Below, piece after piece: positions 17,438 to 63,246 of a stretch of 64,000 nucleotides of DNA. Each line of letters begins with the position of its first letter. The first letter of the stretch is position 1. The DNA is from Ornithodoros turicata (taxonomy: Eukaryota; Arthropoda; Arachnida; Ixodida; Argasidae): assembly GCF_037126465.1 (NCBI RefSeq), contig NC_088205.1, positions 30,983,482 through 31,047,481 of the forward strand. The letters are read 5' to 3'. The position numbers were made by a program, and so were the translations under genes. The notes under the pieces are model-generated. The model worked only from the letters and a program-made list of their open reading frames with translations, was not told the DNA's origin and searched no databases.

Positions 17438-18796
17438 TACTCTAACAATTGCTTATGGTAATGTGGTGAAATTGGGTAATGAGCCTTGTAAACAATTTAC
17501 TTGGCAATATATTTATTTATATGTCATAGGTTGAAGAACCGTGTGGTGGTACATAACAGAGGGGCGTGTAATTATACAAGACCGATCACCTAAAGGCCTT
17601 GCTGCACGCTACATTAAAATGTGATGCAAATGTGACGTGACAAACGCTGCATGGTGGCGATATTACAGGTTCTCCTGACGAATTGTTGGCATGGTTGCGG
17701 TTAGTCAAGAAATTGCATATCCACCCAGTCAACACCGACTGTTGGTGGAACGTAGAATGTACGTTGTCTAATGTTGACTAATGTTGAACAACGTTGGATG
17801 TAGAATGTTAACGCTGAACCAACGCTGTTTCAACTGTACCTGGTCAATGGTGGATTGTGAACGTAAAGAAAAACGTTGATTTTTCATGAAAGAATCAACT
17901 GTAGTTATACGCAGCAAATAGTTGCGCTGCTTCTACATTGTACCTTCAACATATTGTCAACCTTTATCACGAATGGAAACCCGTTGCTTCTTCAGTGCGC
18001 ACACAATTGTTTCGCACTGTATTTTATTTTTACGTTCCATTGTGCCGTTCGCGGTTCGAGTAAGGCCTGTATGACGTGGTATTTATATCACTCATGCTGC
18101 CATTACTAATATTTATTTATTTTATACCCTCATAGCATTACACTTTTTTACCCATTTGTAAACGACTCATCACGAATCGCACGTATTCAGTAAACAAAGG
18201 CAAAAACAACATATTTTACCTTTTCCACGCTATTATAACAAGAAATCAATTTCCCAACAAGCGCGAGCCGAGCGCAACTACGTCTGCCTCATCGCCATCG
18301 ACATTCTCCAACCGCCGTTTCAAATAGTCGAGGCTGGCGAGTGGCGAGGCGCGTCGTCGTGGCAGTTCGGTAGGATGGACATTCATTTTGTCACAGGGAA
18401 AGGTCTTCGGAACGTCAGCATCATGCGTATTTTGTACTGCAATCTCTGGAGCATCGAGGCAGTACTGGCCAATGCGGTGAACAACTATGTTGAGCGTAGC
18501 AGCGAATGGCGTAGTGTGCGAGAGGCAGCGTTTCTTTGTTCTCCGCCCTTCAAGTTTCACAGGTGAGCTTTCTTTCTTCATTTTGCCTCACTTAAGATAT
18601 GTGCGTTCTTGTTTTCTCAACGATCACATATGGTAGAAGTGTGGTGCATAACAGTTCAGTATCCGAAGTAAACAGCTTTGTGTCGTATTCTGTACCTGCA
18701 GAATCTGGTTGCGTATCACTGACAAATTTATGCGAACTGTGGGACTGTGTGTGGTGTGCGTTATGTAGTTTGGTGTATCCGAATATTTATTAAATC
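17438..18796. other. Intergenic, no gene supported
   Basis: A patch at 17740-17870 reiterates AATGTTGA/AACGTTG words. A 111-codon minus frame (18246-18581) and a plus frame ending near a donor-like CAGGTGAGC (about 18560) lie opposite each other; neither is recognised. Confidence 0.4.
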
Positions 18797-19361
18797 GGAA
18801 TGGCTCATCTTCCGTGACCCGGAAGAATTTGCGCCGCCGTATTCTTCCGTGAGTAGCGCCTCATTGGCTGCGCCGGATCACGTGATATTTGGCCGCCGCC
18901 GCCGCCGCAGCCCGACTTTACCGGAAGAATTACGTTCTTCCGTGAGTGGTGCATCATTGGCTGCGTCGGGCCACGTGATCCGTGCTGCCGCCGCTCTGTC
19001 CCTTCGTGCTTCTCGCTTCCTTCCCGTACAATCCGTGCTCGCACTACGAAACCTGACCTTCGTCGTCGTTTCCGTCGTGAAAAGTTACGTGTAAGCGCTC
19101 GCTGCATACGTTCTCCGCTGCCAGGAGAATCGACACCTTCTCAAGATCAATGCATAGCGATACTATGGGCCCGGCCACAGCCGTAGGAGGCTGTTGGAGG
19201 CAAGGCTCGTCTCCGCTGTGTCCTAACCCTTGCTTCTGGTGTGGGACGTTGCATGGACGCTCAATGTGTAGGTTGAATTGACTAATTGTTCTTTATTACG
19301 GTTTTAATTTCTACAGAAGGCGCCCGATAATCAGGGACTCATAGCTTGACTGCTTGCATGT

Positions 19362-20990
19362 CACTTCTTATCAGGTGCACCATTGCACCTCGGGCACCCA
19401 TGAAGAAGACCGAGAGACACGGACACGGAAGACGACACACGTAAGTTCTCAGAGCAAACCCAGTGCTGCTGCTTCACCTGTGCTGTTGCACTGTACAAGA
19501 CATGTGATGCTGTTCAAGACAACACTCGCATATGATGAAAGGAGCATCGCCGATTCATGTTAGACAGCTGCCACAGCAACATGTGTCAAGTCTTTTCTTG
19601 TGGTTCACGACGGCTTTTAGAGCCATCTGGTGTAAAATAGTCCGTCACCAGGGACAGGTTCACGGACTCGTCCAGGATGCCATCGGGTACCCGCTCTGGC
19701 CTCACGTACAAAAAGGAGGAGCACGTGGTAGGCAAGTTCTAACAATCTGGACGAGGACAAACACACACGACTGAGCACAGCCATAGACATGTACTGTAAC
19801 AGCCATGAGTGTCCTATTTAATCAGGCAAATTGCATCAGCTCATTGCAGTTCAGATATTTATTTGCATGCACCAACTTGCCATAACAAAGAAGAAAAATG
19901 TGCTTGCTTTGGCGATTGTCTGTTGAAATTTGAAAACTTGGCCACTCACCAATTAGAGTCAACTGTCTCAGTGCATCTTGTGCAGCTTGTTCATCTACAA
20001 CCCATGACAGGATCTTTCTCCTCTCCTCACTGGCTGACAGTTTTACAAATGGTGTTGCTGCAGTTCTAATTTTCTCCTTGTGCAGGCCAATGGCAGTCTT
20101 CTCAGCTCCTTTCGGTCGACCACGCTTCCTGACAATGGGTGGGACCCGAATGTCAGAGGCTGGATGTTCTTCCACCGACATCCACAGCAGAGAAGCGGCA
20201 TTGCTGTTCACTGTTGTGCCTGGCTGCTCCTGGTGGATCATCATTTACAACAGTTGTTGCCAGGGTAGTGACTGCCTCTGAAATGGATTGAGTCTGAGGG
20301 CCCCCTTCATCCTCAATGCGCACGTGTGCTGCCTGTCACCGTCGGCTGTAGGTGTGCTAGAGATGTCAAGAGCAGGATGTAGAATACCCAGCCGTTTGTC
20401 CTTCAGGAAACAAAGGTCTTGAATCCGCTGGAGGTATTCCTCTCCAGCTGCCTCCGACGCCGGTCTGGCAAGGTATTTTTACAGTTGCATGGCCTTTCGT
20501 AACTTGTCATGTTTAGACAGGCCACGTGGTGGTCGTTCAGATGTCCCTGTAATCGCGAGTCAGGTTCCTTCGGGCATACGTGCTTCCAGCATGTCCTGGT
20601 TAGAATTGTAACTGTTGGTCCACTTGCTGTGGCACAGCTCCATGCAGTACAAGTCTGCTCCTTTGAGTTCTGATGCTGCCAGTATATGGCGGCTTGGCAG
20701 CAACGTTGAATAAGTTGTGGAGCACACGCAACTATTTACAGTCACAACAGTGGGCCCAGATGATGGTGTGAGCGAGTACGTGCCGCGCTCTCATGCTGGC
20801 AGCTTTACTTTATGACGCTGCTGGCTGACGCTCTTGACCGAATTGGAGGCAAATTCGGTCAGAGTGTTGTAGTACTGCTCCTCAGCCTCCTGGGCAAACG
20901 TGATTACTTTTCGCTTGTGGGTGGCCTGTGGTGGTGCCTTGTTGTCGCAGCTCTCATCGCGGTTCATTACATTAGGACGGCAAATCGTCA
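19362..20990 (-). pseudogene. ZSWIM/MULE transposase, 3' half (left copy)
   Basis: Minus-strand frames match the right copy. From 20990 they carry the MNRDESCDNKA region and ITFAQEAEEQYYNTLTEF. A SWIM-type region follows near 20700. The AT-hook-like RKRGRPKGAEKTAIG and SWVVDEQAAQDALRQL lie at 19,930-20,150. The frame HKRKVITFA is continuous here, which shows that the right copy has a one-base insertion at that spot. The C-terminal PHD-like exon (19,362-19,740) is damaged: its acceptor is lost and about 60 bases are inserted near 19,400. With the catalytic centre lost to the PLE-bearing insertion, this copy cannot encode a transposase. Confidence 0.75.
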
Positions 20991-20991
20991 A

Positions 20992-21920
20992 GAGTGACAA
21001 AGAATATATATAGTACAAACAAATAATTAATAAAATATAATAAATAATAAAAATAGAGAAAATAAAATAACAAAAAATATACAGGGTGAACAAAATTAAG
21101 CTTTCACAAGCGCTTCATAAATAGACAGACAGAAGAAACCCGGGTGCTATTTTTCTGCTACTTGAGTAAGCACCTGTTTCTTACTCAAGTAGCATGGAGA
21201 TGGCCCTGGTTTTCTTTTATCGTTGTTTGTTAAGCGCTCGTGGAAGCTTAACGTTGTCCACGCTGTATAACTAACATATATAAAAATACGGAATAAAATT
21301 TATGAATATGTAAAATACGAATGTTAAATGTAGGTATAAAAATAAATAAAACTAATATATATGTACATGTACACATTGTTATTATTATACACTATATTAA
21401 TCTGTTACACTATTGTACTATTACATATTATAACATACATTACATATAATTACACAATTACACTACAATATTTCACACATACATATATATATATATAATA
21501 CATTTGTTATAATTACAATAAATATATATAAAAATAAGGAATAAAAATGTGATATAAACAAAAATAAAAATAATATTAATGGTGATGAAGATAATATATT
21601 AGAAATTTATATATATGAAATAAGAAATATAAATTCTGTGAAAATAAAATAACAAAAATACACCAATATATGAAATACAAATGTAAAATATACATATACA
21701 AAATTAGGTAATAAAAATTGATAAATTTATAAAAATCAAAATAATAAAGAAAAATAACCAATAATATAATTATATATATAGAGAGAAAATTTATAAAATA
21801 AGATATAGATTAATACAATAAAAACATATATAAATACATATAAAACAAATATACAATATAAAGGAAAATAATTTATGTAAACAAAAATAAATAAATTAGA
21901 AGTATATATATATATATTTC
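20992..21920. repeat. AT-rich low-complexity block
   Basis: About 900 bases are made almost only of A and T (AATAAATA, TATATA), apart from one 184-bp MITE. There is no coding capacity; long minus-strand frames of Tyr, Phe and Ile are compositional artefacts. It interrupts the left ZSWIM copy. Confidence 0.85.
21082..21265. mobile_element. 184-bp Tc1/mariner-type MITE with hairpin centre
   Basis: The left end CAGGGTGAACAAAATTAAGC and right end, read inverted, CAGCGTGGACAACGTTAAGC form imperfect TIRs of about 35 bases, flanked by TA on both sides (21080-21081 and 21266-21267). The centre is another dyad: CTACTTGAGTAAG pairs with CTTACTCAAGTAG. It has no ORF. The TA target and CAGGG start suggest Tc1/mariner. 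Confidence 0.75.
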
Positions 21921-21927
21921 CAGTTTG

Positions 21928-22004
21928 ACCGTGCACTCCCAGTCGAGTACAGCTGTTTCGTCCTGCTTGGGACTCGTCAGCCCGGCGTAGGGAAGTGACA
22001 CGAT
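21928..22004 (-). ncRNA. Type I hammerhead ribozyme (minus strand copy)
   Basis: The reverse complement of the left palindrome arm contains the same core: CTGACGA, GTCC-CAAGCA-GGAC, GAAAC, AGCT and GTA. The 3' strand of stem I reads CTCGACTG instead of CTCGGCCG, so a G-C pair near the core is lost and stem I is weaker than in the plus-strand copy. Confidence 0.75.
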
Positions 22005-22079
22005 CTTGGGTCGGCACTGACAGTGCGTCTCGGCGAGACGTCAACGTTCGCGAAGATGCACTGTTAGTGCCGACCCAGA

Positions 22080-22156
22080 ACCGTGTCACTTCCCTACGCC
22101 GGGCTGACGAGTCCCAAGCAGGACGAAACAGCTGTACTCGGCCGGGAGTGCACGGT
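22080..22156 (+). ncRNA. Type I hammerhead ribozyme (plus strand)
   Basis: All conserved parts are present in order. The core CTGACGA is at 22104-22110. Stem II is GTCC/GGAC (22111-22114 and 22121-22124) with loop CAAGCA. GAA is at 22125-22127. Stem III is a minimal AC/GT pair (22128-22129 and 22134-22135) with loop AGCT. The cleavage triplet GTA ends at 22136, so cleavage is predicted between 22136 and 22137. Stem I is long: GCCGGG next to the core pairs with CTCGGC, and after an internal loop CCC, CAC and ACCGTG pair with GGG, GTG and CACGGT. Short stem III is typical of hammerheads in Penelope-like elements and retrozymes. Activity is inferred, not shown. Confidence 0.88.
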
Positions 22157-22210
22157 CAAACTGTAAACATATGCTCAAGCTATTTACCCTTTGTATATAT
22201 ATATATATAT

Positions 22211-23562
22211 ATATAGATAGGGGAGAAACGACACCAGAGACTGAAGTAGGGAGTAGGGGAAAGTTATTTATTAAGCTGGCATTTAAACTAAGGGTCTGAG
22301 GGAGTCTACGTTTCGGCGGAAGCTCCGCCTTCTTCGGGACTGAGAGGAAAATCTATGTACAAGGTCTTTTAAAAGGTTACAAAAGTGTCGTCACAGTTGG
22401 TACAATTCCACTGCGAGGCAGTCGTCAGTGAGTCATGTTCTGGAAGATTCCGGAAGGTTCCTGGGTCATCGGCCGGGGAGATTACGTGTCAGAGCCTTGG
22501 GTCGCGCTCGTTGAAAACCTGTTGTCCGGGGTGTTCTTAGAGTCATTGTGTCCAGCTGTAAAGAAAAGAAGAAAAGAGGCAGCGGGCACTCCGAGGACAT
22601 ACAAAAAAAAGTTATCCGGATATGCTTCTTACAGTTGATAGCACTCCTTTATCCTCATTTATTAGAGATTGGAATTTGTAGATCAAGTACGATTCGCGTT
22701 GCTCTCTGCAGCGATCGGATGTGAAATTTGACTCTAAAATAAAAAGTGCGACGTTATTAATGGAATGACCGGGTCGACTAAAATGGCGAGAAACCGGGAG
22801 GCTACCTTTTTTCCAAACATCTGATCGGTGGTTATTGAATCGAATCCTAAATGAATTTTTACTTTGACCTACATTTTGCGCGGAGCATGTTGTACATTGA
22901 ATGATATAAATAATGTTACTGGAGTTACAGTCAAAGTCGCCATTGATTTTAAGGGAGAAGTCGGAGTTTGTACTCTTGACCGCTGCCGTGCTTTGCATTG
23001 ATTTGCATATTTGGCATCTTTTACCATTGCATGGATGGCATCCCGCCGTAGGTGTTAATGGTTTGGGAACTTTGGAGTTGACTAGTCTATCTTGGAGGTT
23101 GCGGGCACGTCTGTAGGTAACTCGTGGCTTCTCGGCAAATATTTGTCGTGTCCGTTCAGATTGCAGAAGGATGCTATGGTGGCGGTGGAGGATACTGTTA
23201 ATATTACCCGCGCCTGCACCAAAGGTAAGAACAAGGTTTACGCGGTCGCCCTTGGGTTCGTCGTTGCGTTTACCGAATAAGACACGTAATCTCCCCGGCC
23301 GATGACCCAGGAACCTTCCGGAATCTTCCAGAACATGACTCACTGACGACCGCCTCGCAGTGGAATTGTACCAACTGTGACGACACTTTTGTAACCTTTT
23401 AAAAGACCTTGTACATAGATTTTCCTCTCAGTCCCGAAGAAGGCGGAGCTTCCGCCGAAACGTAGACTCCCTCAGACCCTTAGTTTAAATGCCAGCTTAA
23501 TAAATAACTTTCCCCTACTCCCTACTTCAGTCTCTGGTGTCTTTTCTCCCCTATCTATATTC
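22211..23562 (-). mobile_element. Penelope-like element 1: truncated copy between inverted pLTR arms
   Basis: Arms at 22211-22490 and 23281-23562 are near-identical and inverted (about 280 bases). Between them, on the minus strand, lies only the C-terminal PLE coding part. Each arm holds GGCGGAAGCTCCGCC next to GAAACG (on the reverse strand). TA microsatellites lie just outside both ends (about 22190-22215 and 23598-23620). Pseudo-LTRs in direct or inverted order are known for PLEs; here the copy is 5'-truncated and fused to an inverted arm at 23280/23281. Confidence 0.85.
22612..23343 (-). pseudogene. PLE 1 C-terminal fragment: Cys knuckle plus GIY-YIG domain
   Basis: The first 20 or so codons (23343-23281) are pLTR sequence read through. 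True PLE homology starts at LFGKRN. The frame then carries the CHPCNGKRCQICKSM knuckle and a GIY-YIG-type domain, NIIYIIQCTTCSAQNVGQSK, with RIRFNNHRSD, ending ..STVRSISG. The reverse transcriptase is missing. In the related copy at 24000-25214 the matching residues are QYVGQ; here the conserved Tyr is Asn (QNVGQ), so the nuclease is probably inactive. It has no intact start of its own. Confidence 0.85.
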
Positions 23563-23629
23563 AACATCCTGGTCGTTCGAACCTAAATTTTGTAGCGTAT
23601 ATATATATATATATATATACTGGAAGAAA

Positions 23630-25544
23630 GGGGTTCGGGCGACCGCGAAATTAAATAGGTACTAACAAAATATGAGGCAGACAACGAAGATGTAGGAAGT
23701 AGAAAAAGGGGGAGTTATTTATTTACTAGTGGAAAGTTAAGGGGGAAGTCAACGTTGCGGAGGAAGCTCCGCCGTCGTCAGGACTGAAGAATGACAAATG
23801 ACACTTGGAGTTGTATACAGTGCTACAATGACGTCACAATCGGGGGGTCCCGCCACCTGGCGGCCGTCAGCAGGTCAAGTACAAGGAAGTGGTTGAGTCA
23901 TGTCCGGTGAAGAGGTCATAGTCCGGGAGGTGGGATGGAATCCAAGGGCTGTGGACTGTTGTTCTGCAAAGAAAAGGGGAACAAGCAGCAGTACACTATC
24001 TAAGCAGATAAGTTTCTTATTGTCGACAGTACACCGGGGTCCTCGTTTATGATAGATTGGAATTTGTAGATAAGGTAAGATTCGCGCTGTTCTCGGCACC
24101 GGTCGGAACTGAAGTTTGTTTGAAGAAGGAAAGTTGAAACATCGTTAATTGAATGCCCTGGCTGGCTAAAATGGCGTGAAACTGGAAGATTCGGTTTTTT
24201 CGTCACGTCCGATCGGTGATTGTTAAATCTGATTCTGAATGCGGTTTTTGTCTGGCCCACGTACTGTGCTTGGCATGCGTTACATTGAAGGAGATAGATA
24301 ACGTTGGACGAATTACAGTCTAGGTTTGCTCTAATTGTCACTCTGAAGTGAGAACTAGTACTTTCGGCTATGGTGGTGTTTTGCATTGATTTGCATATTT
24401 GACATCTGCGGCCTTCACATGGGTGACAACCCATTGGTGAATCATTTGGTTCGTTGATTTTAGAATGAACTAAGCTATCTAGCAGATTGCGTGCGCGCCT
24501 GTAGGTGACACGAGGTGCCTGCGGAAAAATTTCCTTTGTGCGCTCGGATTGCTGAAGTATGCTATAGTGTCGATTCAGTATACCCTTAATGTTTGGGATA
24601 TTTCCAGCAAATGTTACGATCAGGTTGATAGCGTCCTCTTTTGTGCTATTTTTTCGCGTACCGAATAGTGACTGGCGCTCTATTTTTCGGGCCCTGTTGA
24701 GAGCGTCTTTCACAAGGTTCGGTGGAAAATGGCGGTCAACGAATGTTTGTTGCAACTGATTTAGATTCCTGTCAAGATCGTCATCGTTCGAGCAGATTTT
24801 CCTGTACCGAAGGGCTTGGCTGTAAGGGATGGCAAGCTTTGTATGCCGTGGGTGACAGCTGTGAAAGGACAAATACTGTTGGGAGTCAGTGGGCTTCCGG
24901 AATAGGTCGGTGCTTAGAACTCCGTCTTGTAGTCTTACCTGAACATCTAGGAAGTTAACAGTTGCAGTTGAATACGTGTGGGTGAACTTAATAGTGGGAT
25001 GAAATTGGTTGAGATCATTTATGAATTCTATGAGGTCCCTTTCTGAATGTGGCCAGATCATAAATATATCATCCAGGTAGCGTTTGTAAAGTGCCGGCTT
25101 TCGCTCACGTCCTTCCAGAAATTTTTCTTCCAAAGTTCCCATGATTTGCATAAGTAGGCGCCATTTTAGTGCCCATAGCCGTGCCGCTGATTTGGAGGTA
25201 GTGCTGACTGTCAAATTCGAAGTTATTGTTTTTAAGGATTAGGTTTACTAGCTTGGACAGGGCAAGTGGGTCGATAGGACTGTGTCCGGCGTATCTAGAA
25301 AAAGCTGTCTCAACTGCAATAATGCCGTCATCGTGGGGAATATTAGTGTAGAGGGACGAGACATCTAATGTAACTAGGAAACTTGATGTGGGGGGCTGGC
25401 ACTGATTTAGTATTTGAAGGAAATGGTTAGTGTCCTTGATGTAGGACGGTAGTTGTGGGGGTATGTCCTTGAGGACGTGATCTACAAAGCTGGATATCTT
25501 TTCTGTGGCTGTACCATTGCAAGACACAATTGGCCTGCCACCCT
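23630..25544 (-). mobile_element. Penelope-like element 2 (5'-truncated)
   Basis: The minus-strand element has its 3' UTR at about 23630-23999, coding sequence to 25544, and a 28-base inverted duplication at the 5' junction. The 3' UTR contains CTGACGACGGCGGAGC (minus strand, about 23765-23785), parallel to the arm motif of PLE 1. It is inserted in the left ZSWIM transposon. Confidence 0.85.
24000..25544 (-). pseudogene. PLE 2 reverse transcriptase with GIY-YIG endonuclease, frameshifted
   Basis: Two overlapping minus frames (25544-25105 and 25214-24000) make up the reverse transcriptase and nuclease. The first has RPIVSCNGTATEKISSFVDH, motif A (LVTLDVSSLYTNIPHDDG) and GTAMGTKMAPTYAN. The second has the catalytic YLDD in YKRYLDDIFMIW and FLDVQV. 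It continues with the CHPCEGRRCQICKSM knuckle and a nuclease with QYVGQTK and RIRFNNHRSDV, ending ..STIRNLSA. The frame change lies near 25,150, just after TYAN. The N-terminal part of the reverse transcriptase is missing. It would copy PLE RNA primed at a nicked target; this copy cannot make a full protein. It differs clearly from PLE 1, so the two are related families rather than duplicates. Confidence 0.9.
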
Positions 25545-25571
25545 GGCAGGCCAATTGTGTCTTGCAATGGT
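25513..25571. repeat. Perfect 28-bp inverted repeat at the PLE 2 5' junction
   Basis: ACCATTGCAAGACACAATTG.. at 25513-25540 is exactly inverted at 25544-25571, with CCC between. The inner arm is PLE coding sequence (IVSCNG region); the outer arm is its reversed copy abutting the ZSWIM transposon. This looks like a target-primed reverse transcription scar. Confidence 0.92.
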
Positions 25572-25584
25572 ATACAATGGACAA

Positions 25585-27100
25585 CATATTTTGACAAGAT
25601 TTTATATTGCATAGATGGCGATGAATCCTGGGCAGCACTGCATCTTTTTCTTCATTCGAGCATTGGTGATGAAGAGTCCCCTGAATTCTTTCTGGCCATC
25701 CAAGAGCAGATGGCAGTCACATCCTATGAGTATTACAAAAAGTTGTGAATGTAGAAATGATTCAACCCTGAAGTTCTTTTTTTTTCTCCTTTCTTTCCTT
25801 CTTTCAAATTCTGGGGTAAAAATTGGGCCGGTAGTTTCATGAAACAATTCACGCAAATTCGGGTGGGAAAATTATCATCAGACTGAATTTTGGTAGAAAT
25901 CTGGCTTTCTTGTAGAAATAACATCCTTTGTACCATTCATCTGGAATTTTAGGAGTAATCAACTCCGTATTTTGTGCAAGATTAGTATGTCACTGCCTTG
26001 AGGTGTCTAGCTATCAGGTTTAACGGGCGAACCTCGATTCTGGGAAATGTTGGGTTACACCCTAAAAATGAATGAAGCGATCAATTCAGCCAGGAGGACA
26101 TCCGAACTGGGAGGCATTACCATACTTCTTCTTTAGTATGGTGACAGTTGCCTGGATGTTGTTTCGTGAAGGAGATGAGAAGGCTGTGACCATGTTGTTG
26201 AGGTCCTTCCTGAGGATTACCTTATCAGACTCTTCTTAAATGCTTTGCCTCACAAGCTTCGTGTTCGCACCAAGCTTGAGGAACTTGTTTACCTCTTGTC
26301 GCGTTGCCTCAGGCAAATGTCTGTGTAGCTCCTGCATGGCAGCAACATGAATGTCAGTTGAATTAAATTTGAGTTGTTCTTGCTATACGGATCAATGACT
26401 GATGACCGAGAAGCTGTAGTGAAATGGCTGCGCATTAGAGCATCCCATTCAGTTATCGACAGAGGACTGAGTATGTGTGAACCACGACAGAGCACACACC
26501 TTTGATGTGACATGATTGTGCTCGTCGTCAATGCTGATGATTTGCAAGGACTCCCCATCTGGCGTCGCACGGCATTTAATCCGTGCTGGGCAGCCTGCTT
26601 GATAAGTGCTGTATTAAAGAAATTGACTTGTTGCTTAAATTTGTGTCGCCTCACCTTTTTGGCCCCTGCTCTTACCTTGAGTTCCTCATTCTCTTAAACT
26701 TACACTGGAACTTTATGCCACCTTTAATGCAATGGTATATGAGCCCGTAGTATACAAGCTGTGGATTTACATGCTTTGTAACTTTCTTGTGAGCAGCCTC
26801 AACCTTTTGTGAGTCATGCCTGTAATAGTTCTGGCACACAGGCTGAGAGTAGCTCTCAATGGCTTTGACGAGTTCATCGGGCATAGAAAACTCGTCACCC
26901 ACTTTTAACATGGTTTCCATCATGAAATACTCAGTCTCTCGCACGACAGTTGAAAAGCGCGCCAAGTTCGTAGCGTTCGCGGTTGCCGTGCGACGAGCCG
27001 TAGCGTAGCTGCACCAAAGCAGTGCTTGGCTTGCATGGGTAGTGATGCTGATGGGTGATGGCCTGCTTATGCACTTGTTTAGGTACATGTGTTGATGCAT
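25585..27100 (-). pseudogene. ZSWIM/MULE transposase, 5' exons (left copy)
   Basis: On the minus strand, 26,940-26,690 encodes MMETMLKVGDEFSMPDELVK and QNYYRHDSQKVEAAHKKV. The DNA-binding exon (QAAQHGL in frame one; the real frame matches CPARIKCRATPDGE of the right copy) is at about 26,510-26,620. A helical linker is near 26,100-26,330, and the beginning of the transposase domain is at 25,590-25,750. The equivalent of the linker acceptor and several codons differ from the right copy. Exons run into PLE 2 at 25,572. Confidence 0.7.
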
Positions 27101-27505
27101 TAAGAAAGGCTAAAAATGTCTACATGAAACGCACTATGCCAAGACTGCGAATGCAAGGGGCTAAACCCTGAGCATGATTTACTTAGCAACAAGAAAAAAA
27201 AAGTGCTGTTGGTTAAGAGTGTGTCGTCATGTCTGTCAGATACTTTCTTGCGACTGTCTAACCCCTTATGACATGCAACTTGCACCGTACAGATAGACTT
27301 GTAGTATTCACTGTGTTACAATACAGTTGTGGTGCGAGATTTTGTCAGCGAAAGATGGCAGTCTCCTGTCTCAAATAAATGTCAGTTGCTGGAGTTGAGT
27401 CCTCATGTCTTCTTTCGGTCTCAAGCTTTCGTTACTCATTGTGGATGTTCACCTGCTTGCTGCCGCCCCCCCCCCTTTTTTGTGATATGGTAAGATTTCG
27501 GGCAG

Positions 27506-28460
27506 CACACACCCGACCTCATGGACAGTTGACCTTGTGCTGCCGGTCTATTAAGGTAAGGCGGGCATACCCAAATGAATCAACTAAACGATGTACAGGG
27601 TATTTAACGTTACAGCATACAGTGTATCCCAGCCAAATGCAAACGATATTTATGATAAAAGGGGGATCTATAGGGAACACTGGTGCCATTTCTTTGATAC
27701 TTGTATTGGAAACTAGCTGTGTGGTGAGATGCGCCTGTTTTTCGCAGAAGTGACACAGAAAAGGTATCGGTTTTTCTGTATTTCTGCATTGTATTAGCAC
27801 TTGGCTGGAATGCCTGGTATATACCTAGTTGGAAATTATGCTAAAAGTACAGAGCTAACTACACTGACAATACTGGAACTAGGTGATTCAGTAAAGTAAG
27901 ACTGCTTCGTTTCATTAACTTAATCCAGTTCGTTTAGTCATTGCTCCACTAGTGTACCGCTGCACACCTCATCGGGTCGTCCATGGAGCTTTGAACCGTG
28001 CATAGGCCAGTGGAAATGTTAGAGGCAATGCTTTTCCCGACTTTCACGGTTTAGCCATGAACCATCAGATAAGGGTCCTCTATCAAGTAAAACTGAGACA
28101 AACGAGTGTTCTGGCAACGGGCGTAGCCAGAAATGAAATTTTGGAGGGCTCAATGGGAGGTTTATATGGGAGAGGATGATTTCAGTCTTCCCTTTCCCAA
28201 ATGCTCAATTAAAGTTACAGTTTCTAAGAAGGGAGGGGGGGTTGCATTCAAAGCCTCGCCCCTCCCCCGCTACGCACACCTTGTTTTTGCGTACAGTCGA
28301 CTCCAAATTTTCTTTTTATTCGTTTTGCCGCCATTATGAACTGGTACTTTACCTTGGCCCACCCTTGGACGACTAGCGCCCCACAGAACCAGCAAACTGT
28401 GCACGATGGTGGGGCGGGTAGGTGACTCGCAGTAGCGGTCACGCACAATTCCTGTGCGCG
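27506..28460. other. Spacer between head-to-head ZSWIM copies
   Basis: A 950-base stretch of no recognised content; a 124-codon frame at 27379-27753 crosses the transposon boundary and has no known domain. If the pair arose by inverted duplication, the breakpoint lies in or beside this spacer. Confidence 0.45.
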
Positions 28461-28718
28461 CTATCCAAAATCTTACCATATTAGGAACTGCATATTAGGA
28501 AAGGAAGGAATGGTCGGCGGCGAGCATAAGTGAACATCCACAATGAGTAACGAAACCGAGAGAAGACACGGAGTGAATATACCAGCAACAGACATTTATT
28601 TGAGACAAGAGATGGTCGTCCTTCGCTGACAAATCTCGCACCACAGCTATATGGCAGCACCCTGAGTACTACACGCTTTCCTGTGATGTACAAGTTGTAC
28701 GTCATAAGGGGCTAGAGC

Positions 28719-29112
28719 CAGGGGTCGGGAACCTTTACAGTTCCAAGGGCCATATTTCACCCCCCCCCCCTCTCGTCGTAGACATTTTTCGAGGGACCGC
28801 AGATGAGATTTGAACCCATTCTAAAATAAGTCTAAATTAGCCTGCCGAAATTATATTCGCTGTTGAATGACAAGCTGACCGTTCCACAAGTGCAAATAAT
28901 ACTGAAAGCTTGCTTGGCTCAAGTTATGGTACGAGAATACGACAAACACCTTTTGTTAATTTTAAGCGCGGGAGAGGCAACACCGAGAGCACACTTTTGC
29001 TTCAGGAATTCGCCCAGCTAAACACCGGAATTTTTGCTGTGCGCTCGGTCTGCGCCAGGCCGCAACTGTAGCGCAGCTGGGCCGCAAGCGGCCCACGGGT
29101 TCCCAACCCATG
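28719..29112. mobile_element. hAT-type MITE nested in the ZSWIM transposon
   Basis: The left end CAGGGGTCGGGAACC and right end GGTTCCCAACCCATG are imperfect TIRs of classic hAT form. Flanks GGCTAGAG (28710-28717) and GGCTTGAC (29113-29120) match at 6 of 8 positions. The left ZSWIM copy lacks these 394 bases and reads straight through (AAGGGGTTAGACAG), which proves the insertion. It has no ORF. Confidence 0.85.
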
Positions 29113-29432
29113 GGCTTGACAGTAGCACGAAAGTATCTAACAGACATATCAAACTGCTAACTAGCTGTACTTTTTTTTTTTGCGAAGCAAATTATGCTCA
29201 GGGTCTAGTTCCTTGCTTTGGCATCGCCCTTTCAATGTGGACACTTTTGGCCCTTTTTAATACTTGAACTCATGCACCTGTACAAGCTCATAACCGGCCC
29301 ATCAACATCACCACACATCCAAGCCACGTTCGGTTAAGCTACGCTCCTTGTCACGTGGCTCGTCGCACGGCAACGGCGAACGCTACGAACTTGGCGCGCT
29401 TTCCGATTGCCGTGTGAGACACTGCGTCTCTC

Positions 29433-32400
29433 ATGATGGAAACCACGTTAAAAGTGGGTGACAAGTTTTCTACACCCGATGAACTCGCCAAAGCTATTGA
29501 GAGCTACTCTAAGACAGTATGCCAGAACTATTACAAGCGTGACTCGCGAACGATTGAGGCTGCTCGAAAGAAAGTTACCAAGCATGTAAATCCACAGCTT
29601 GTATACTACGAGCTCACATACCATTGTATCAAAGGTGGCATAAAGTTTCAGACTAAGTCCAAGGGAATCAGGAACTCAAGGTAAGAAGAGGTGACAAAAA
29701 AAGGAGGGCAACACAAATTTAAGCAACATGTCAATTTCTTTAATACAGCACTTATCAAGCAGGCTGCCCAGCACGGATTAAATGCCGTGCGACGCCAGAT
29801 GGGGAGTCCTTGCAAATCATCAGCATTGACGACGAGCACAATCATGTCACATCAAAGGTGTGTGCTTGTCGTGGTCCACAGAAGCTCAGTCCTCTGTTGA
29901 TAACTGAATGGGATGCCCCAATGCACAGCCATTTTACTAGAGCTTCTTGGTCATCAGTCATTGTTCTGTACAGCAAGAACTCAAATTTCATTCAAGTGAC
30001 ATTCATGTTGCTGCCATGCAGGAGCTACACAGACATTTACCGCATCAACGCTGTCTCCCTGAGGCAATGCGACAAGAGGTAAACAAGTTCCTCAAGCTTG
30101 GTGCGAACACGAAGCTTGTAAGGAAGAGCATCCAAGAAGAGACCGACAAGGTAATCCTCAGGAAGGACCTGAACAACATCGTCGCAGCCTTTTCATCTCC
30201 TTCACGAAACAACATCGAGGCAACTGTCACGAAACTGAAGGAGAAGTATGGTAAGGCCTCCCGGTGCTTGTCTTCCTGGCTGCACTGATCGCTTCCTGTC
30301 TTAGCCCCTGAAATTCTATAACGTAACGTAACCCAACCTTTCCCCAAGTTGAAGTTTGCCTGTTGTCGGTTGAGCCCGAAATCACGAAGCCGTGCCTAAG
30401 CTAGAGACCTCTTACTCAAATCTTACACAAAATACACAGTTGTTCACTCCTAAAGCTCCAGGTAAATGGTACAACAAACTTAATTTCTACAATAAAGCCC
30501 GATTTTCCTTAAAATTGGTCTGATGTCAAACTTTTGGCACGAAGCTACCCTCTTAGTTACTACCACCAAATTCAATAATAATAATAATAATAAAGCCCTT
30601 GAACTTCGCGGTTCAATCACTCATTCACAACTTTTCGTAATGCCGTTAGGGTGTGACTGCCATCTGCTCTTGGATGGCCAGAAAGAATTCAGGGGTATCT
30701 TCATCACCAATGCTCGAATGAAGAAAAAGATGCAGTGCTACCCGGAATTCATCGCCATCGATGCAACATACAAACTCCTTGAGATACGTTGTCCAGTCTT
30801 CATTATTCATATTGAAGACGGCAACGGCATGACAGAAGTTGCTGGCGTAGGCATCCTGTGTTCAGAAGATAGACAAAGTCTTCAGTGGCTGCTACAGAAA
30901 TTCAAGGAATGCAACCCAACGTGGACCGAAACCAGATGCATCATGGCAGACAAGGACCTTGAAGAGCGCCAGCTGCTGAAAGAAGAATTTCCCAACGCAA
31001 ATGTGCTAATCTGCATATTTCATGCGCTGCGGACATTTGGGCGGGAAATCAGCTGTGAAAAGTTGGGTATTTCACCAGCTCAGAGGGAAGTCTGCCTGGA
31101 AGTCCTACAGGCTATGGCGTGGGCAAAGAGCAAGGACGACTATACAAAGCTCCTGCCCAAGTTGGAAGAAGTCGCACCAAGACCAGTGCTCGAATACTTT
31201 AACAAGAATTGGCGGGATATCTCCAACGAGTGGTCACTGGGCCCGGAGTTCAATGTCTCCAACTTTTTGAACAGCACAAACAACAGACTGGAGTCTCTGA
31301 ACAAGGACCTAAAATCTGCTATCAAAAGATTCAGCTCTCTTGAAGATTTTGTCGATGGTCTATTTGCCGTCCTCATGAACCGCAATGAGAGCTGTGACAA
31401 CAAGGCAGCACAGGCCATCCACAAGCGAAAAAGTAATAACGTTTGCAGAGGAGGCTGAGCAGCAGTACTACAACACTCTGACCGAATTTGCCTTCAATTT
31501 AGTCAAGAGAGAGCTCCACCTGCGTCATAAAGTACAGCTGCCTGCAAGAGAGCGTGGTACGTACTCGCTGATATCATCATCTGGGCCCACTGTTGTGACA
31601 GCAAATAGCTGCACGTGCTCCACAAGATCATCGATGTTGCTGCCATGCCGCCACATATTCACAGCAAGAGAACTTGAAGGGGTGGACTTGTACTGCCTGG
31701 AGCTGTGCCACAGCAGGTGGACCAAAGGTTACTACAATTCTAACCAGAACGTACTGGAACCATGTATGTCCGACGAAGCCTGCCTCACGATCACGGGGAC
31801 AGCAGTACGACCAGCACGCTGCCTGTCTCAGCACGAGAAGTTCCGGAAAGCCATGCAACTGGCAAAAGACCTTGCCGGATTGGCGTCGTAGGCAACTGGA
31901 GAGGAATACCTCCAACGGATTCAAGACCTTTGTTCCCTGAAGGAAACATGGCTGGGTATTCTACCTCCTGCTCTTGACATCTCCAGCACACCTACAGCCG
32001 ACGATGACGGGCAGCACATGTGCATTGAGGATGAAGGGGTCCCTCAGACTCAATCCATTTCAGAGGCAGCCACTTCCCTGGCAACAACTGTTGTGAATGA
32101 TGATCCACCAGGAGTAGCCAGGCACAACAGTGAACAGCAATGCCGCTTCTCTGCTGTGGATGTCGGTGGCAGAACATCCAGCCTCTCAGACATCCGGGTC
32201 CCACCCATTGTCAGAAAGCGTGGTCGACCGAAAGGTGCTGAGAAGACTGCCATTGGCCTGCACAAGAAGAAAATCAGAACTGCAGCAACACCATTTGTAA
32301 AACTGTCAGCCAGTGAGAAGAGGAGAAAGATCCTGTCATGGGTTGTAGATGAACAAGCTGCACAAGATGCACTGAGACAGTTGACTCTAATTGGTGAGTG

Positions 32401-32948
32401 GCCAAGTTTTCAAATTTCAACAGACAGTCGCCAAAGCAAGCACATTTTTCTTCTTTGTTATGGGAAGTTGGTGCATGCAAATAAATATCTGAACTGCAAT
32501 GAGCTGATGCAATTTGCCTGATTAAATAGGACACTCACGGTTGTTACGGTACATGTCTATGGCTGTGCTCAGTCGTGTATGTTTGTCCTAGTCCAGATTG
32601 CTAGCACTTTCTTATCACGTGATCCTCTTTTTTGTAGATGAGGACCAGGTTGAGGTGAGGCCAGAGCGGGTATCCGGTGGCATCCTGGACGAGTCCGTGA
32701 ACCTGTCCCTGGTGACGGACTATTTTACACCAGAAGGGCTGCAAGCTCTAAAAGCCGTCGTGAACCACAAGAAAATACTTGACACATGGAGCTGTGGCAG
32801 CTGTATAGCATTCATCGGCGATGCTCCTTCCATCATATGCGAGTGTTGTCTTGAATGGCATCACATGTCTTGTACGAGCGCAACAGCACAGGTGAAGAAG
32901 AAGCACTGGGTGTGTTCGAGGTGCAATGGTTCACCTGATAAGAAGTGA
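29433..32948 (+). pseudogene. ZSWIM-like MULE transposase, five exons, two lesions
   Basis: Exons are 29433-29680, 29749-29857, 30022-30250, 30650-32393 and 32637-32948. All junctions agree in phase and use GTAAGA, GTGTGT, GTAAGG and GTGAGT donors. Exon 2 gives a FAR1/ZSWIM-like DNA-binding piece (QAGCPARIKCRATPDGES, DDEHNHVTS). Exon 4 holds the MULE-type catalytic domain (FIAIDATYKL, MADKDLEER, CIFHALRTF). It also holds a SWIM zinc finger, CTCSTRSSMLLPCRH (CxC..CxH), and an AT-hook, RKRGRPKG. Exon 5 ends in a PHD-like Cys/His cluster (WSCGSC, CECCLEWHHMSC, WVCSRC). It would cut and move the element. Two lesions are visible against the left copy: five As instead of four at 31428-31432 (frameshift), and TAG for GAG at 31889-31891. 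AATAAA follows at 33012-33017. With the lesions repaired it would be about 880 residues. A domesticated ZSWIM gene is less likely because a full paralogue sits beside it. Confidence 0.8.
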
Positions 32949-33279
32949 CATGCAAGCAGTCAAGCTATGAGTCCCTGATTATCGGGCGCCTTCTGTAGAA
33001 ATTAAAACCGTAATAAAGAACAATTAGTCAATTCAACCTACACATTGAGCCTCCATGTAACGTCCCACACCAGAAGCAAGGGTTAGGACACAGAGGAGAC
33101 GAGCATTGCCTCCAACAGCCTCCTGCGGCTGTGGCCGGGCCCATAGTATCGCTATGCATTGATCTTGAGAAGGTGTCGATTCTCCTGGCAGCCGAAAACG
33201 TATGCAGCGAGCGCTTGCACGTAACTTTTCACGACAGAAACGACGACGGAGGTCAGGTTTCGTAGTGCGAGCACGGATT

Positions 33280-33510
33280 GTACGGGAAGGAAGAAGCACG
33301 AAGGGACAGAGCGGCGGCGGCACGGATCACGTGGCCCGACGCAGCCAATGAGGCACCACTCACGGAAGGACATAATTCTTCCGGGAACGTCGGGCTGCGG
33401 CGGCGGCGGCGGCGAAATATCACGTGATCCGGCGCAGCCAATGAGGCGCTACTCACGGAAGAATACGGCGGCACAAATTCTTCCGGGTCACGGAAGATTA
33501 GCCACTCCGT
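33280..33510. promoter_or_regulatory. GC-rich transposon terminus with twin repeats, E-boxes and CCAAT boxes
   Basis: Two units of about 80 bases each contain an ACTCACGGAAG-type word, an AGCCAATGAGG CCAAT box and a CACGTG E-box (TCACGTGAT in one, GATCACGTGG in the other). CGG runs separate them. The same pair occurs inverted at 18797-19000. It could be a transposase-binding subterminal repeat or an outward promoter. Confidence 0.5.
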
Positions 33511-33513
33511 TAT

Positions 33514-34334
33514 TAAATATGTTCTGATGATATCCTACTGGGGTCAGGTCTAATGCTGTCTGGTTTATGGCTGCTGTAAATGCCTTCCCAGTGTCATCAG
33601 TTTGCAACGGAGCTTTACCCCATTGTTGATGTCGCACGTTCAAACAGTACGTAGCGCAGTTATTTCAGATGTTACGTGTTGTTCACATCTCTTCGATTCA
33701 TGCACTATTTTATAGGTGCTCGTGATGTCTTGAACTGGGAGTGGTGAAAGCAGGGGTGGCCTATTCTGTGAGCAGTCTGATAGTACAGATAAGATTGGCT
33801 GCAAAGGAAATTAGTTACCTTTGCACATCTGACTGCGCTGTTTTCCAAGGTTTCTGTATAACCGCTAATCTGGTTGTTGAGTGAGCTAGTGCCGCTGTTT
33901 GTAGTTTTGTATGAACTAATAGCTTGTGTTACAGTTGTCAGAGAGCTGAAACTGCATGTGATTTCGTCATATCGATAGACAGCGTCAAGCATGTGTAAAG
34001 GACCTGGTGTCTCTCTACAACAATGAAGAGCAGGCCATAAACCAGAAGACGAAGACATCGCTTGGACATGCCAGTGATTAGGCTGCTTCCGCATCACACC
34101 ATCTATGCTCCGAAAGATGCTGCGGTAGGTGTCACGCACGTGTTCCCAGTGGTTGTAAAGTGTCTGTTTTTGACGTCTATTTATGGTAGTGTTTGAGCTG
34201 CTATCCCGCTAGATGGAATGACCTATGTTATTGGTTATCTTTCAGAGATGACCGTTACGAAGAGGCGTAGCAACCATCCATGTGATTATTATTATTATGA
34301 CCATTATCACTGATTATTGCCGCACATGAACGTG
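33514..34334. other. Intergenic, no gene supported
   Basis: The longest frame (33705-34139, minus, 144 codons) has no recognisable domain and low-information composition. Confidence 0.4.
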
Positions 34335-37840: not shown

Positions 37841-37948
37841 TGAATTCTTAGAAAAATGCCGACCTATGCTACGAAGTGGGAGGATTGGGCAGGGGATACA
37901 GCAACTCATCATGAATAGTGTCATGAATTTTCGCTAAAAATAAGATAT

Positions 37949-38252
37949 TGTAACGACGATAAGGACGGTGGGCGCATGCAACGCGACCCATGCACACTCT
38001 GTATCATGTAGCCATTAAACACATAACATCGTCACGACGCTATGCTGCCTAACATTTGGTGGAGGCGCGGGGCATCCACTGTCCTGGCGCTGCTGCCGCA
38101 ACCACCGAAGCCCCAGCCCTGAAGATGTGACGCAGCCGAAGACCCGTGTTAGGCAGCACAGCGTCGTGACGATGTTGTGCGTTTAATGGCTGAATGATAC
38201 AGAATGCGCATGGGTCGCGTTGCATGCGCCCATCGTCCTTATCGTCGTTACA
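37949..38252. mobile_element. Miniature retroelement with two short LTRs in inverted orientation
   Basis: A 106-base unit (37949-38054) starts TGTAACGACGATAAGG and ends TGCTGCCTAACA. It is followed by TTTGGTGGAGGCGCGGGG, which has the form of a Ty3/gypsy primer-binding and leader region. A second 106-base unit at 38147-38252 is its inverted copy, about 93% identical by eye. ATAT flanks both ends. The inner leader is 92 bases with no ORF. Confidence 0.75.
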
Positions 38253-38476
38253 ATATCATACTTTCTATGGTTTAATATTTTACGCACTGAGAAGAGGTCA
38301 GATCTGTGCATCTTATTCGGCACGTCACTGGAAGATTGGTTGGGAAAATTCCACACCGTCTTACACCAGTCCTCTCAGCAGTAAAAATTAAGCAAGCTTA
38401 ATCATGCTGACAAAGGCCGGGTAACACAGAATGTGTCTAGCTTATCATTCAGCGTGATCAAGCTTTGTCGATAGTA

Positions 38477-43266: not shown

Positions 43267-43419
43267 CCCAAGCAGCAAAATGTACTGAAAGTCGGGTGCA
43301 ATAGGGGTGGACGGGTAGGTGGAAGGCCTTGAACAGACTCGTGAAACTAAGGAACATCGATAAGACACATACCGTCCACCCCTAGTGCACTCGACTTTCA
43401 GTACATTGTGCTGCTGGGG
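43267..43419. mobile_element. 153-bp palindromic MITE, copy 1
   Basis: TIRs start CCCAAGCAGCAAAATGTACT and, on the other end, CCCCAGCAGCACAATGTACT. Arms of about 48 bases flank a 55-base centre. GT occurs on both sides as a possible 2-bp duplication. It is the same family as 48334-48485, in opposite orientation. Confidence 0.8.
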
Positions 43420-43441
43420 GTCTCTGAGCTTTTTGTCATAT

Positions 43442-44005
43442 GGGTGCGTTCTTAAACTCTCGTGTGGGTTGTAGTCATGTGACTAGGTTGTACCATGTGA
43501 TCGCATGATTAACTGGGTTTTGGAACGACGCAGTGCTAAGAAGCGAAGAATGACTAAAAGGGTAAAATAATCACATTTTGCTGGCACACTGAGTCGTTGG
43601 TAATAAAAATAAACGATTACAAGAAAAGTACTTGCCAGGTTTGGAATTGTTCCTGCAGTTCGCAGCCGACATGACAGCGACAATGGATGACGAGTCGCTT
43701 CGTCATCCATTTGTAGCTGTCATGTCGGCTGCGAACTGCAGGAACAACTCCAAACAAGACAAGTGATTTTCTTGTAATCGTTTATTTTTTATTCCCAAGG
43801 ACGCAGTGTGCCAGCAAAATTTCAATATTTTACCCTTTTAGTCGTTCTTCGCTTCTTAGCACTCGTTTGCCAGCTGTAACCGCACTTCTAAGCCGGGCGT
43901 CTCGACCCACTGCATCATTCCAAAACCCAGTTAATCATTCGATCACATAGTGCAACCTGGTCACGTGACTACAACCTACCCGAGGGTTTGGTTAGGAACG
44001 CACCC
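43442..44005. mobile_element. 564-bp foldback element
   Basis: Ends GGGTGCGTTCTTAA and, inverted, GGGTGCGTTCCTAA open two arms of about 250 bases. These stay near-complementary to the centre (ATGACGAGTCGCTTCGTCAT at about 43688). The right arm carries an extra insertion near 43865-43920. The GGG start resembles Tourist/PIF MITEs, but no TWA duplication is visible. It has no ORF. Confidence 0.8.
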
Positions 44006-44992
44006 ACAAAGCAAACCGAAACGATGTGAAAGCTTTCTTTGCGAGGTGTCCCGAAAAACAAACACCACCCACCACACGCTTTCCTTTCTCTAAGGGCTAC
44101 CAGTTTGCAACCGCACAGCACTACTGCACTGCCTACTAACCATCTTGCTCAGAGAAATGAATGCTGCGAATGGTGCGTGTGTGCCTCCCTTTTACAAGGA
44201 AAAGTCCTGTCACAAAAAACAGACTGACACTGTTCATAAATAAAAAAGCAGTTGAAGGGAGAACAGCCGATAAAGCCCGCACAAAACGGTGGAAGATTAG
44301 CAGACGACAGCGTCCGTGACGTCATTACCCGCACCTACCCTCCGGTTAGGGGAGAGTCGTCGAGGGGAGGTGCAGTACTTCATATATTTGGACCAGCACT
44401 ACGTTGATTTGCCGCACTGACTGTTTAGTAGCATCCGCAGTTCTTTGTAACTAAACCACGTGACATTTGCTACCGTCACGTCTGCCTAGCCGACGATCCC
44501 TGCAAGCGAAAGATATCGGAATGTTGCGAAGCACGTGACCGCATGTCTTATCTTCGTTGGATGATGACAGACGGGTCGAAAAACAAAATAAAGAGCGGCT
44601 ACTGCGGCCGAGAGCTCGCCTCCTTGATGGTTTGTTTCTCTTCACTCTTTCTTTTCAGCCTAGATTATCGAGTTGCTGTGTACAGGAAGCTGGGAACACT
44701 TTGTCACGGAACATAGGCCGATGGTAGATTGTTCAACTAAATTCTCATTTAGCTAAACTATGGCGCTTTCTATACAGTGTACCTCGCCGCACATATTAGT
44801 TGTTATGTAATTCTTTTGCTCCCTATGTAACTATAAAGGAACATGGTATCGGTCATAAAAAACGAAATTGTGGCACCGCAGTAGTATTCTCTCTGCACGC
44901 ACGGTTTTACATATATATATATATATATATAGCGCGAAAGATATATTCCTTATTTCCTTGATGCTTCTTCCTTGCTCCTTATTTTGTTACAG

Positions 44993-48156: not shown

Positions 48157-48333
48157 ATAAATCGTTATATTTTCGTGTCGTCCCCTTTGTCTTCCGGATT
48201 CCTTCCCTCTACTGACTGCTCATATGCAGACTGTAATCAGCAATTCCATCGCTTCCGTTGGTTAGCTGCAGTTAACGTATATCTCACGCTTATAGCCCAC
48301 CACCGACTTAAACATTTCTATCACAATCCCCCG

Positions 48334-48485
48334 CCCAAGCAGCACAATGTACTGAAAGTGGAGTGCAATAGGGTGGACGGTCTGTGTCTTATCAGTGTTC
48401 TTTAGTGTCAGGAGTCTGTTCAAGGCCTTCCACCTACCTGTCCACCCCATTTGCACTCGACTTTCAGTAGATTGTGCTGCTTGGG
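48334..48485. mobile_element. 152-bp palindromic MITE, copy 2
   Basis: TIRs begin CCCAAGCAGCACAATGTACT and, inverted, CCCAAGCAGCACAATCTACT. The loop is the reverse complement of the loop of the copy at 43267-43419. CG on both sides is a possible 2-bp duplication. Confidence 0.8.
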
Positions 48486-48991
48486 CGTCACCGGACCTCG
48501 CAACCTGGAAGGTAAAGGTCGCTCAAATGAAGGGAACGATGAGCACATATCACGAATATCACTACCCAAAGGCAGAACCGGCTGATCGAACACGTCTTTA
48601 TCGTTATCAAAGTACACGTGCCCCAGACCCGAGGGCTGACGAATGTCAGCACTGATATCTGGGTGTGCCATTCGTTTGACTGCAGGTGACACTCAAGGGG
48701 CATTTTGCATGCAGAGCAAAGAAAAGGCACGCTCATCGCTTAACGGCAGGTGTGTAATCACGTCACGAGTAGCACTGAAATGAGCCGCGAGAGGCGATTA
48801 GATCGCATAGCGCCGAGATACGCTTGGCGCCATCTCTCGGCAGGAACATCGGCGGGTACATATGACAACCGCCGAACGGCTCACCAGTCCTTCTAGCCCG
48901 CCATAGTACCAGGCGGGTGACACTTCCCTTGGCTGCAATGGAGCCAGTATTTCCTGCGTTACAGCGCCCCTTGCGGATGATGGACTCTTAC
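48486..48991. other. Intergenic, upstream of NRF1-type site
   Basis: No coding content is recognised. Confidence 0.4.
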
Positions 48992-58555: not shown

Positions 58556-58799
58556 TGTAGTGTTCGTATAACCGAACATATAATATCACATACACGGATG
58601 TCATCGAAGTAACGTAATACATACCGCCACGTAGGCGCGTCGATCCAACACGATGTCTGTAAACAGACACGCTGGGAGAAACTGTAGAGGTATGAGAGAG
58701 TCGAAAATAAAGCATCGAAGTGTACGGACGGAAAGGAGCCTCTGTCGTTGTTCTGTTCAACATTGGGCACGATACAGAATATCCTGTCAAGACACCACA
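58556..58799 (+). repeat. Ty3/gypsy 5' LTR
   Basis: Starts TGTAGTGTTCG and ends GACACCACA. AATAAA occurs at about 58706. It differs from the 3' LTR at four positions by eye (for example GATGTCATCG against GATGGCATCG). Confidence 0.95.
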
Positions 58800-58846
58800 A
58801 AAACTGGCGACGAGGATGGGATGTTAATCCACCGTCGGAGAAGCCC

Positions 58847-62968: not shown

Positions 62969-62997
62969 CTGAAGGACTTTAATAAAGCAAGGGGGGA

Positions 62998-63241
62998 TGT
63001 AGTGTTCGTATAACCGAACATATAATATCACATACACGGATGGCATCGAAGTAACGTAATACACACCGCCACGTAGGCGCGTCGATCCAACACGATGTCT
63101 GTAAACAGACACGCTGGGAGAAACTGTAGAGGCATGAGAGAGTCGAAAATAAAGCATCGAAGTGTACGGACGGAAAGGAGCCTCTGTCGTTGTTCTGTTC
63201 AACATTGGGCACGATACAGAATATCCTGTCGAGACACCACA
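62998..63241 (+). repeat. Ty3/gypsy 3' LTR
   Basis: Directly follows AGGGGGGA and matches the 5' LTR except at about four of 244 positions. It is followed by the ACGTG target duplication. Confidence 0.95.
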
Positions 63242-63246
63242 ACGTG

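Follow-up and report, generated by a model that had tools for sequence, protein, structure and literature searches.

A palindrome at 21912-22172 of the window (the whole stretch of 64,000 bases that was analysed) carries two type I hammerhead ribozymes, one on each strand and arranged head to head, beside sequence of Penelope-like elements (PLEs). This structure is most likely to be the leftover of inverted copying at insertion, rather than a ribozyme that works in both directions, and the DNA now present at the locus is probably an ageing relic.

The two hammerheads and their palindrome

Three features make up the core of the locus:

21912-22172, no strand: palindrome (inverted repeat) with both hammerheads, from an inverted-repeat search, self-comparison and folds
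21928-22004, minus strand: type I hammerhead; Rfam match 21986-21942, cleavage predicted after 21948
22080-22156, plus strand: type I hammerhead with a long stem I; Rfam match 22098-22142, cleavage predicted after 22136, extent of stem I taken from folds

When all 64,000 bases were scanned with cmscan against the whole of Rfam, the two hammerheads were the only two matches at the gathering threshold. Both cover the entire Hammerhead_1 model (RF00163, positions 1-45 of 45, gathering score 34), with 40.7 bits on the minus strand and 38.8 bits on the plus strand, and a chance hammerhead is ruled out by the respective E-values of 6.4e-7 and 2.9e-6. The initial annotation had proposed a covariance search of both strands as a check, and the scores confirm the ribozyme on each. 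The parts that it listed can also be read in the sequence: CTGACGA at 22104-22110, stem II GTCC/GGAC, GAA, the GTA triplet, a long interrupted stem I and a stem III of two base pairs with an AGCT loop. Judged by the model, each copy has the catalytic core, the three helices, the open stem I and the score above gathering that mark the type I class, and the two do lie head to head, with short stem III, in a palindrome beside PLE sequence, as had been proposed. The minus-strand copy, which had been called near-perfect, is present, but the Rfam alignments place one C-A mismatch in the six base pairs of its proximal stem I, whereas those of the plus-strand hammerhead are fully paired. The 5' ends of both hammerheads point to the centre of the palindrome, and each orientation has only this one copy in the window. 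The ribozyme is readable on both strands because the DNA is an inverted copy of itself.

A palindrome had been recognised from the start, but the bounds then given to it (21921-22163) are too narrow for a symmetry that spans 21912-22172. Its arms, at 21912-22036 and 22048-22172, are 125 nt each and 91% complementary, with a spacer of 11 nt between them; when gaps are allowed the symmetry reaches the centre, with 13 differences (12 substitutions and one gap) in 131 columns. The ungapped arms differ at 11 sites, by nine transitions and two transversions, and four of these 11 sites are at CpG. With this many differences in 125 sites, an assembly artefact from fold-back reads is ruled out. The GC content is 0.60 in 21921-22163, against 0.20 in the AT-rich DNA to the left. 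Inspection by eye of the flanks of the palindrome showed no target-site duplication.

The composite insert and its Penelope-like elements

The palindrome is one part of a composite insert in a duplicated region, the features of which are:

18783-33520, no strand: inverted duplication of a MULE/ZSWIM-type transposase region (domain search, self-comparison)
20986-25577, no strand: composite insert of an AT-rich stretch, the palindrome, PLE copy 1 and PLE copy 2 (self-comparison)
21903-21916, no strand: (TA)n tract at the left edge of the palindrome
22194-22215, no strand: (TA)n tract between the palindrome and the first PLE
22211-22490, minus strand: arm A, the 3' end (pseudo-LTR-like) of PLE copy 1 (alignment to arm B)
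22612-23427, minus strand: open frame of PLE copy 1 with a GIY-YIG domain, its first part being arm B sequence
23281-23560, plus strand: arm B, which repeats arm A in inverted orientation where PLE copy 1 is truncated at its 5' end (self-comparison)
23598-23619, no strand: (TA)n tract between PLE copies 1 and 2
24000-25572, minus strand: PLE copy 2, 5'-truncated, with reverse transcriptase and GIY-YIG pieces in two frames (Pfam)
25512-25572, no strand: palindrome of 61 bp (95%) where PLE copy 2 is truncated at its 5' end (self-comparison)

The insert interrupts the first copy of the duplication (18783-20985 and 25578-27468). The pieces of the duplication are 76-95% identical; the second copy (28512-33520) holds the transposase coding sequence and has 566 bp (30796-31361) in place of the insert. 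Read on the minus strand, the insert runs PLE 2, (TA)n, PLE 1, (TA)n, hammerhead palindrome, (TA)n and AT-rich DNA. The distance of 48 bases first reported between the palindrome and a PLE arm is correct for 22163 to 22211, the start of arm A. There are six (TA)n tracts of at least 12 bases in the window, of which three border the palindrome and PLE units and one is at 21483; the other two lie at 45 kb, where no adjoining PLE was noted.

By their predicted domains, the neighbours combine a reverse transcriptase with a GIY-YIG endonuclease, as PLEs do, albeit weakly. Their identity as PLEs is weak because only one of the three domain matches reaches its Pfam cut-off, the GIY-YIG of copy 1 being exactly at the 22.6 bits required, while the RVT_1 (21.7 bits) and GIY-YIG (19.9 bits) of copy 2 both fall under theirs. 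The E-values are 1.9e-4 for RVT_1 and 1.4e-4 and 9.5e-4 for GIY-YIG. Pseudo-LTRs, direct or inverted, are a further mark of PLEs, and here they are inverted: arms A and B of copy 1 are 280 nt long, head to head and identical at 278 of 280 positions. At the junction of copy 2 with MULE-type sequence, the 61-bp palindrome resembles a snap-back copy. The inverted and palindromic ends of the PLE copies went unmentioned in the initial annotation, whose reading of the locus as a whole is partly supported.

Self-complementary sequence is also found further along the window, at 37937-38264, 43267-43419, 43441-44006 and 48332-48487, where it has a foldback or MITE-like character; 43267-43419 and 48334-48485, both self-complementary, are 89.5% alike in inverted orientation. 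The window further contains a 749-aa open frame with P-element-type transposase domains (51186-53435) and, at 58556-63242, what looks like a young LTR retrotransposon, with a Gypsy-type polyprotein in one frame of 1426 aa (58688-62968) between 245-bp direct repeats that are 98.4% identical. The transposons of the window have an arthropod-like look, perhaps that of a tick.

Folding of the transcripts

At minimum free energy (MFE), transcripts of 21921-22163 fold into one long hairpin of -238.4 kcal/mol (plus) or -233.7 kcal/mol (minus). It had been proposed that a transcript from either strand would contain one ribozyme and its own antisense, and that self-cleavage would compete with the hairpin. 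The full transcript does have this content, but mere competition understates the computed advantage of the hairpin, which is some 82 kcal/mol: with tertiary contacts left out, the ribozyme fold imposed on the full transcript is worse by 82.3 kcal/mol on the plus strand and by 81.9 kcal/mol on the minus strand, the latter energy being approximate since one C-A contact is counted as a pair. Prefixes of growing length, four for each strand and again folded at MFE, behave similarly. On the plus strand every ribozyme base made so far pairs with the 5' arm, and on the minus strand the pairing is the same except for one base at the two longest prefixes, so that in both cases at least 44 of the 45 ribozyme bases, or all of a shorter stretch, are already paired with the 5' arm.

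The cost of the imposed fold and the behaviour of the prefixes imply that a transcript spanning both arms should be locked as a hairpin, as far as these models go. For an isolated unit of 86 nt the ribozyme fold lies only 5.8 (plus) or 5.3 (minus) kcal/mol above the MFE in a model without tertiary contacts, and because this gap is small a transcript of one arm might cleave itself. On the modelled energies, competence for cleavage could be confined to transcripts that start no more than about 20 nt upstream of the ribozyme stem I, or that are cut before antisense pairing.

Origin of the palindrome

Metazoan retrozymes are described as type I hammerhead elements arranged in direct tandem repeats, with a repeat length of about 170-400 nt and less than 45% GC, for which PLEs are strong candidate movers (PMC7229834). 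The palindrome is like them in its type I hammerhead, in a stem III of two base pairs capped by a tetraloop, which is the form reported for invertebrate hammerheads in the same paper, and in belonging to a genome with PLEs. It differs in being a head-to-head pair and in its GC content (0.601 in 21921-22163); self-comparison of the window gave no direct repeat of a palindrome arm, nor are short direct tandem repeats of the retrozyme kind found in the window. The palindrome is not filed as a retrozyme on account of these differences in repeat arrangement and GC content. A second likeness is to the PLEs of rotifers, which have inverted pseudo-LTRs placed head to head, with palindromes at the junctions that are ascribed to self-priming (PMC3846280). 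Thus, the head-to-head form need not be a feature of the ribozyme. The palindrome shares with these elements its head-to-head ends, its palindromic junction and an AT-rich target, and PLEs adjoin it. Simple AT-rich sequence is the PLE target as cited in PMC3846280, and the PLE of the anole homes to AT-rich DNA (PMC11167929).

The most economical reading of the locus is that PLE machinery copied a retrozyme-like unit into an inverted dimer, an agent and a mechanism that we infer. In full, a hammerhead unit from the world of metazoan retrozymes and PLEs would have entered a (TA)n-rich site beside PLEs as an inverted dimer, its halves head to head, or would have taken this form by rearrangement as it inserted, an account to which we give about an even chance. 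The unit was probably placed by PLE machinery, for which the agents would be the PLE reverse transcriptase and endonuclease, and the copying would have been self-primed (snap-back), by analogy with the mechanism proposed for inverted PLE pseudo-LTRs. The inward 5' ends of the hammerheads, the almost spacer-free palindrome, the inverted or palindromic ends of the PLE neighbours and the (TA)n borders argue for such a dimer, and the inverted 3' end of PLE copy 1 has the same head-to-head sense as the palindrome. Several observations argue against a dimer made by a PLE. Between the palindrome arms 11 of 125 sites are different, against two of 280 between those of PLE copy 1, so the two pairs of arms are not products of one recent event. 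The Pfam support for the neighbours is thin, no similarity of the palindrome to either PLE was found beyond (TA)n, no target-site duplication was seen, and two (TA)n tracts had no PLE noted next to them. In addition, palindromes in this region need no PLE, since self-BLAST of the 64 kb, at E 1e-8 or better, yields nine stretches that are self-complementary, and several of these lie nowhere near a PLE.

The main rival to a dimer placed by PLE machinery, although an unlikely one, is that the palindrome is the hammerhead-bearing pseudo-LTR of a third PLE, in the inverted arrangement and with its coding part lost. Its position just past the 3' end of PLE copy 1 and the (TA)n tract is in keeping with this, as is the occurrence of type I hammerheads in PLE pseudo-LTRs (PMC6155905, PMC7761336; Cervera and de la Pena 2014, via citing papers), and both PLE copies lack their 5' parts, the place of the hammerhead in the anole PLE (PMC11167929). 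However, PLE hammerheads are described as minimal, without helix III or loop-loop contacts (PMC7761336, PMC6155905), whereas that of the palindrome folds with a long stem I and internal loops. The palindrome also has no match to the 3' ends of either PLE; in a comparison with neighbours that are themselves missing their 5' parts, it shares nothing with them or their ends beyond (TA)n and contains no PLE coding sequence. It is more doubtful that two separate members of a hammerhead family were joined head to head by inversion or recombination, with arm differences older than the joining. A conserved motif in variable surroundings is what the distribution of the differences resembles: they fall at three of 77 sites inside the ribozyme unit (bounded as in the initial annotation) and 10 of 54 outside it (Fisher p 0.008), they are absent from the 33-nt ribozyme core (chance 0.029) and they leave a longest difference-free run of 59 (chance 0.007), in tests based on 11-13 differences with the sites assumed to be independent. 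This avoidance of the ribozyme, which is compatible with a constrained family whose members were joined and also with decay that was uneven, is suggestive but not strong. A symmetry that passes through the centre with practically no spacer would arise from separate copies only by chance, and the nine transitions among 11 substitutions are like simple decay.

The remaining readings have still less to recommend them. Palindromes of similar size occur at the four foldback or MITE-like positions given above, which would suit an origin as a palindromic repeat, such as a foldback (MITE-like) DNA transposon, with the hammerhead as its cargo, but none of those palindromes has a hammerhead at gathering score and self-comparison gave no terminal repeat common to them and the hammerhead palindrome, and this origin is improbable. 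In a reading that we consider quite improbable, the palindrome would have been copied into DNA from a viroid-like RNA, rod-shaped and about 250-260 nt long, that has a hammerhead in each polarity; the element would be an animal retrozyme made symmetric by inverted dimerisation. Viroids are about 250-400 nt long, a length similar to that of the palindrome. A range of 220-450 nt is given in PMC8781251, and hammerheads in both polarities are known for circular RNAs (PMC7761336). As in viroids and viroid-like circular RNAs (PMC7761336, PMC6155905), the palindrome has a hammerhead on each strand, in this case matched by Rfam on both, and each is predicted to be blocked by complementary sequence when folded. 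Under such a scheme each hammerhead would be silenced by base-pairing to the stretch coding for its counterpart, and cleavage could give unit-length RNA on both strands of a rolling-circle cycle. The difference is that the second ribozyme of the palindrome follows from the near-perfect symmetry of the DNA. Least probable of all is a gene for a long hairpin RNA, the transcript of which would be diced to give small RNAs for the silencing of elements that carry hammerheads. The depth of the hairpins (-238 kcal/mol for plus and -234 kcal/mol for minus) speaks for it, and 21931-22153 matches the Rfam MIR1437 precursor on both strands with 117 and 115.8 bits. That match is below the gathering score of 168, no Rfam miRNA family reaches gathering score in the palindrome, and long hairpins in general probably produce such matches; the other palindromes of the window, an imperfect control, have much weaker sub-gathering miRNA matches (45.1 and 42 bits), or none in the case of 37937-38264.

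No other head-to-head hammerhead palindrome was found in the available parts of the literature searched, which took in few subscription journals. Comparison of the palindrome with phages by blastn (words of 11) gave no matches. Hammerhead patterns had no hits in viral contigs or in prokaryote genome contigs, and a looser pattern had two and one, respectively; these three loci were dropped, as none is at Rfam gathering score. One stretch in the viral contigs fitted the pattern for a PLE protein and none was confirmed. This blank says little about animals, because the collections scanned consist of viruses and prokaryotes.

The published link between retrozymes and PLEs is built on their co-occurrence, on the type I hammerheads that they share and on tandem arrangement (PMC7229834). 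If the palindrome is a single relic, it would have little import except as a neat instance of inverted copying. Should the head-to-head form prove to be a recurrent one in the genome, its inverted dimers would be physical evidence tying hammerhead retrozymes to self-priming in the style of PLEs, and they would provide a simple route from an element with a ribozyme on one strand to one with a ribozyme on both, which is the layout of viroids.
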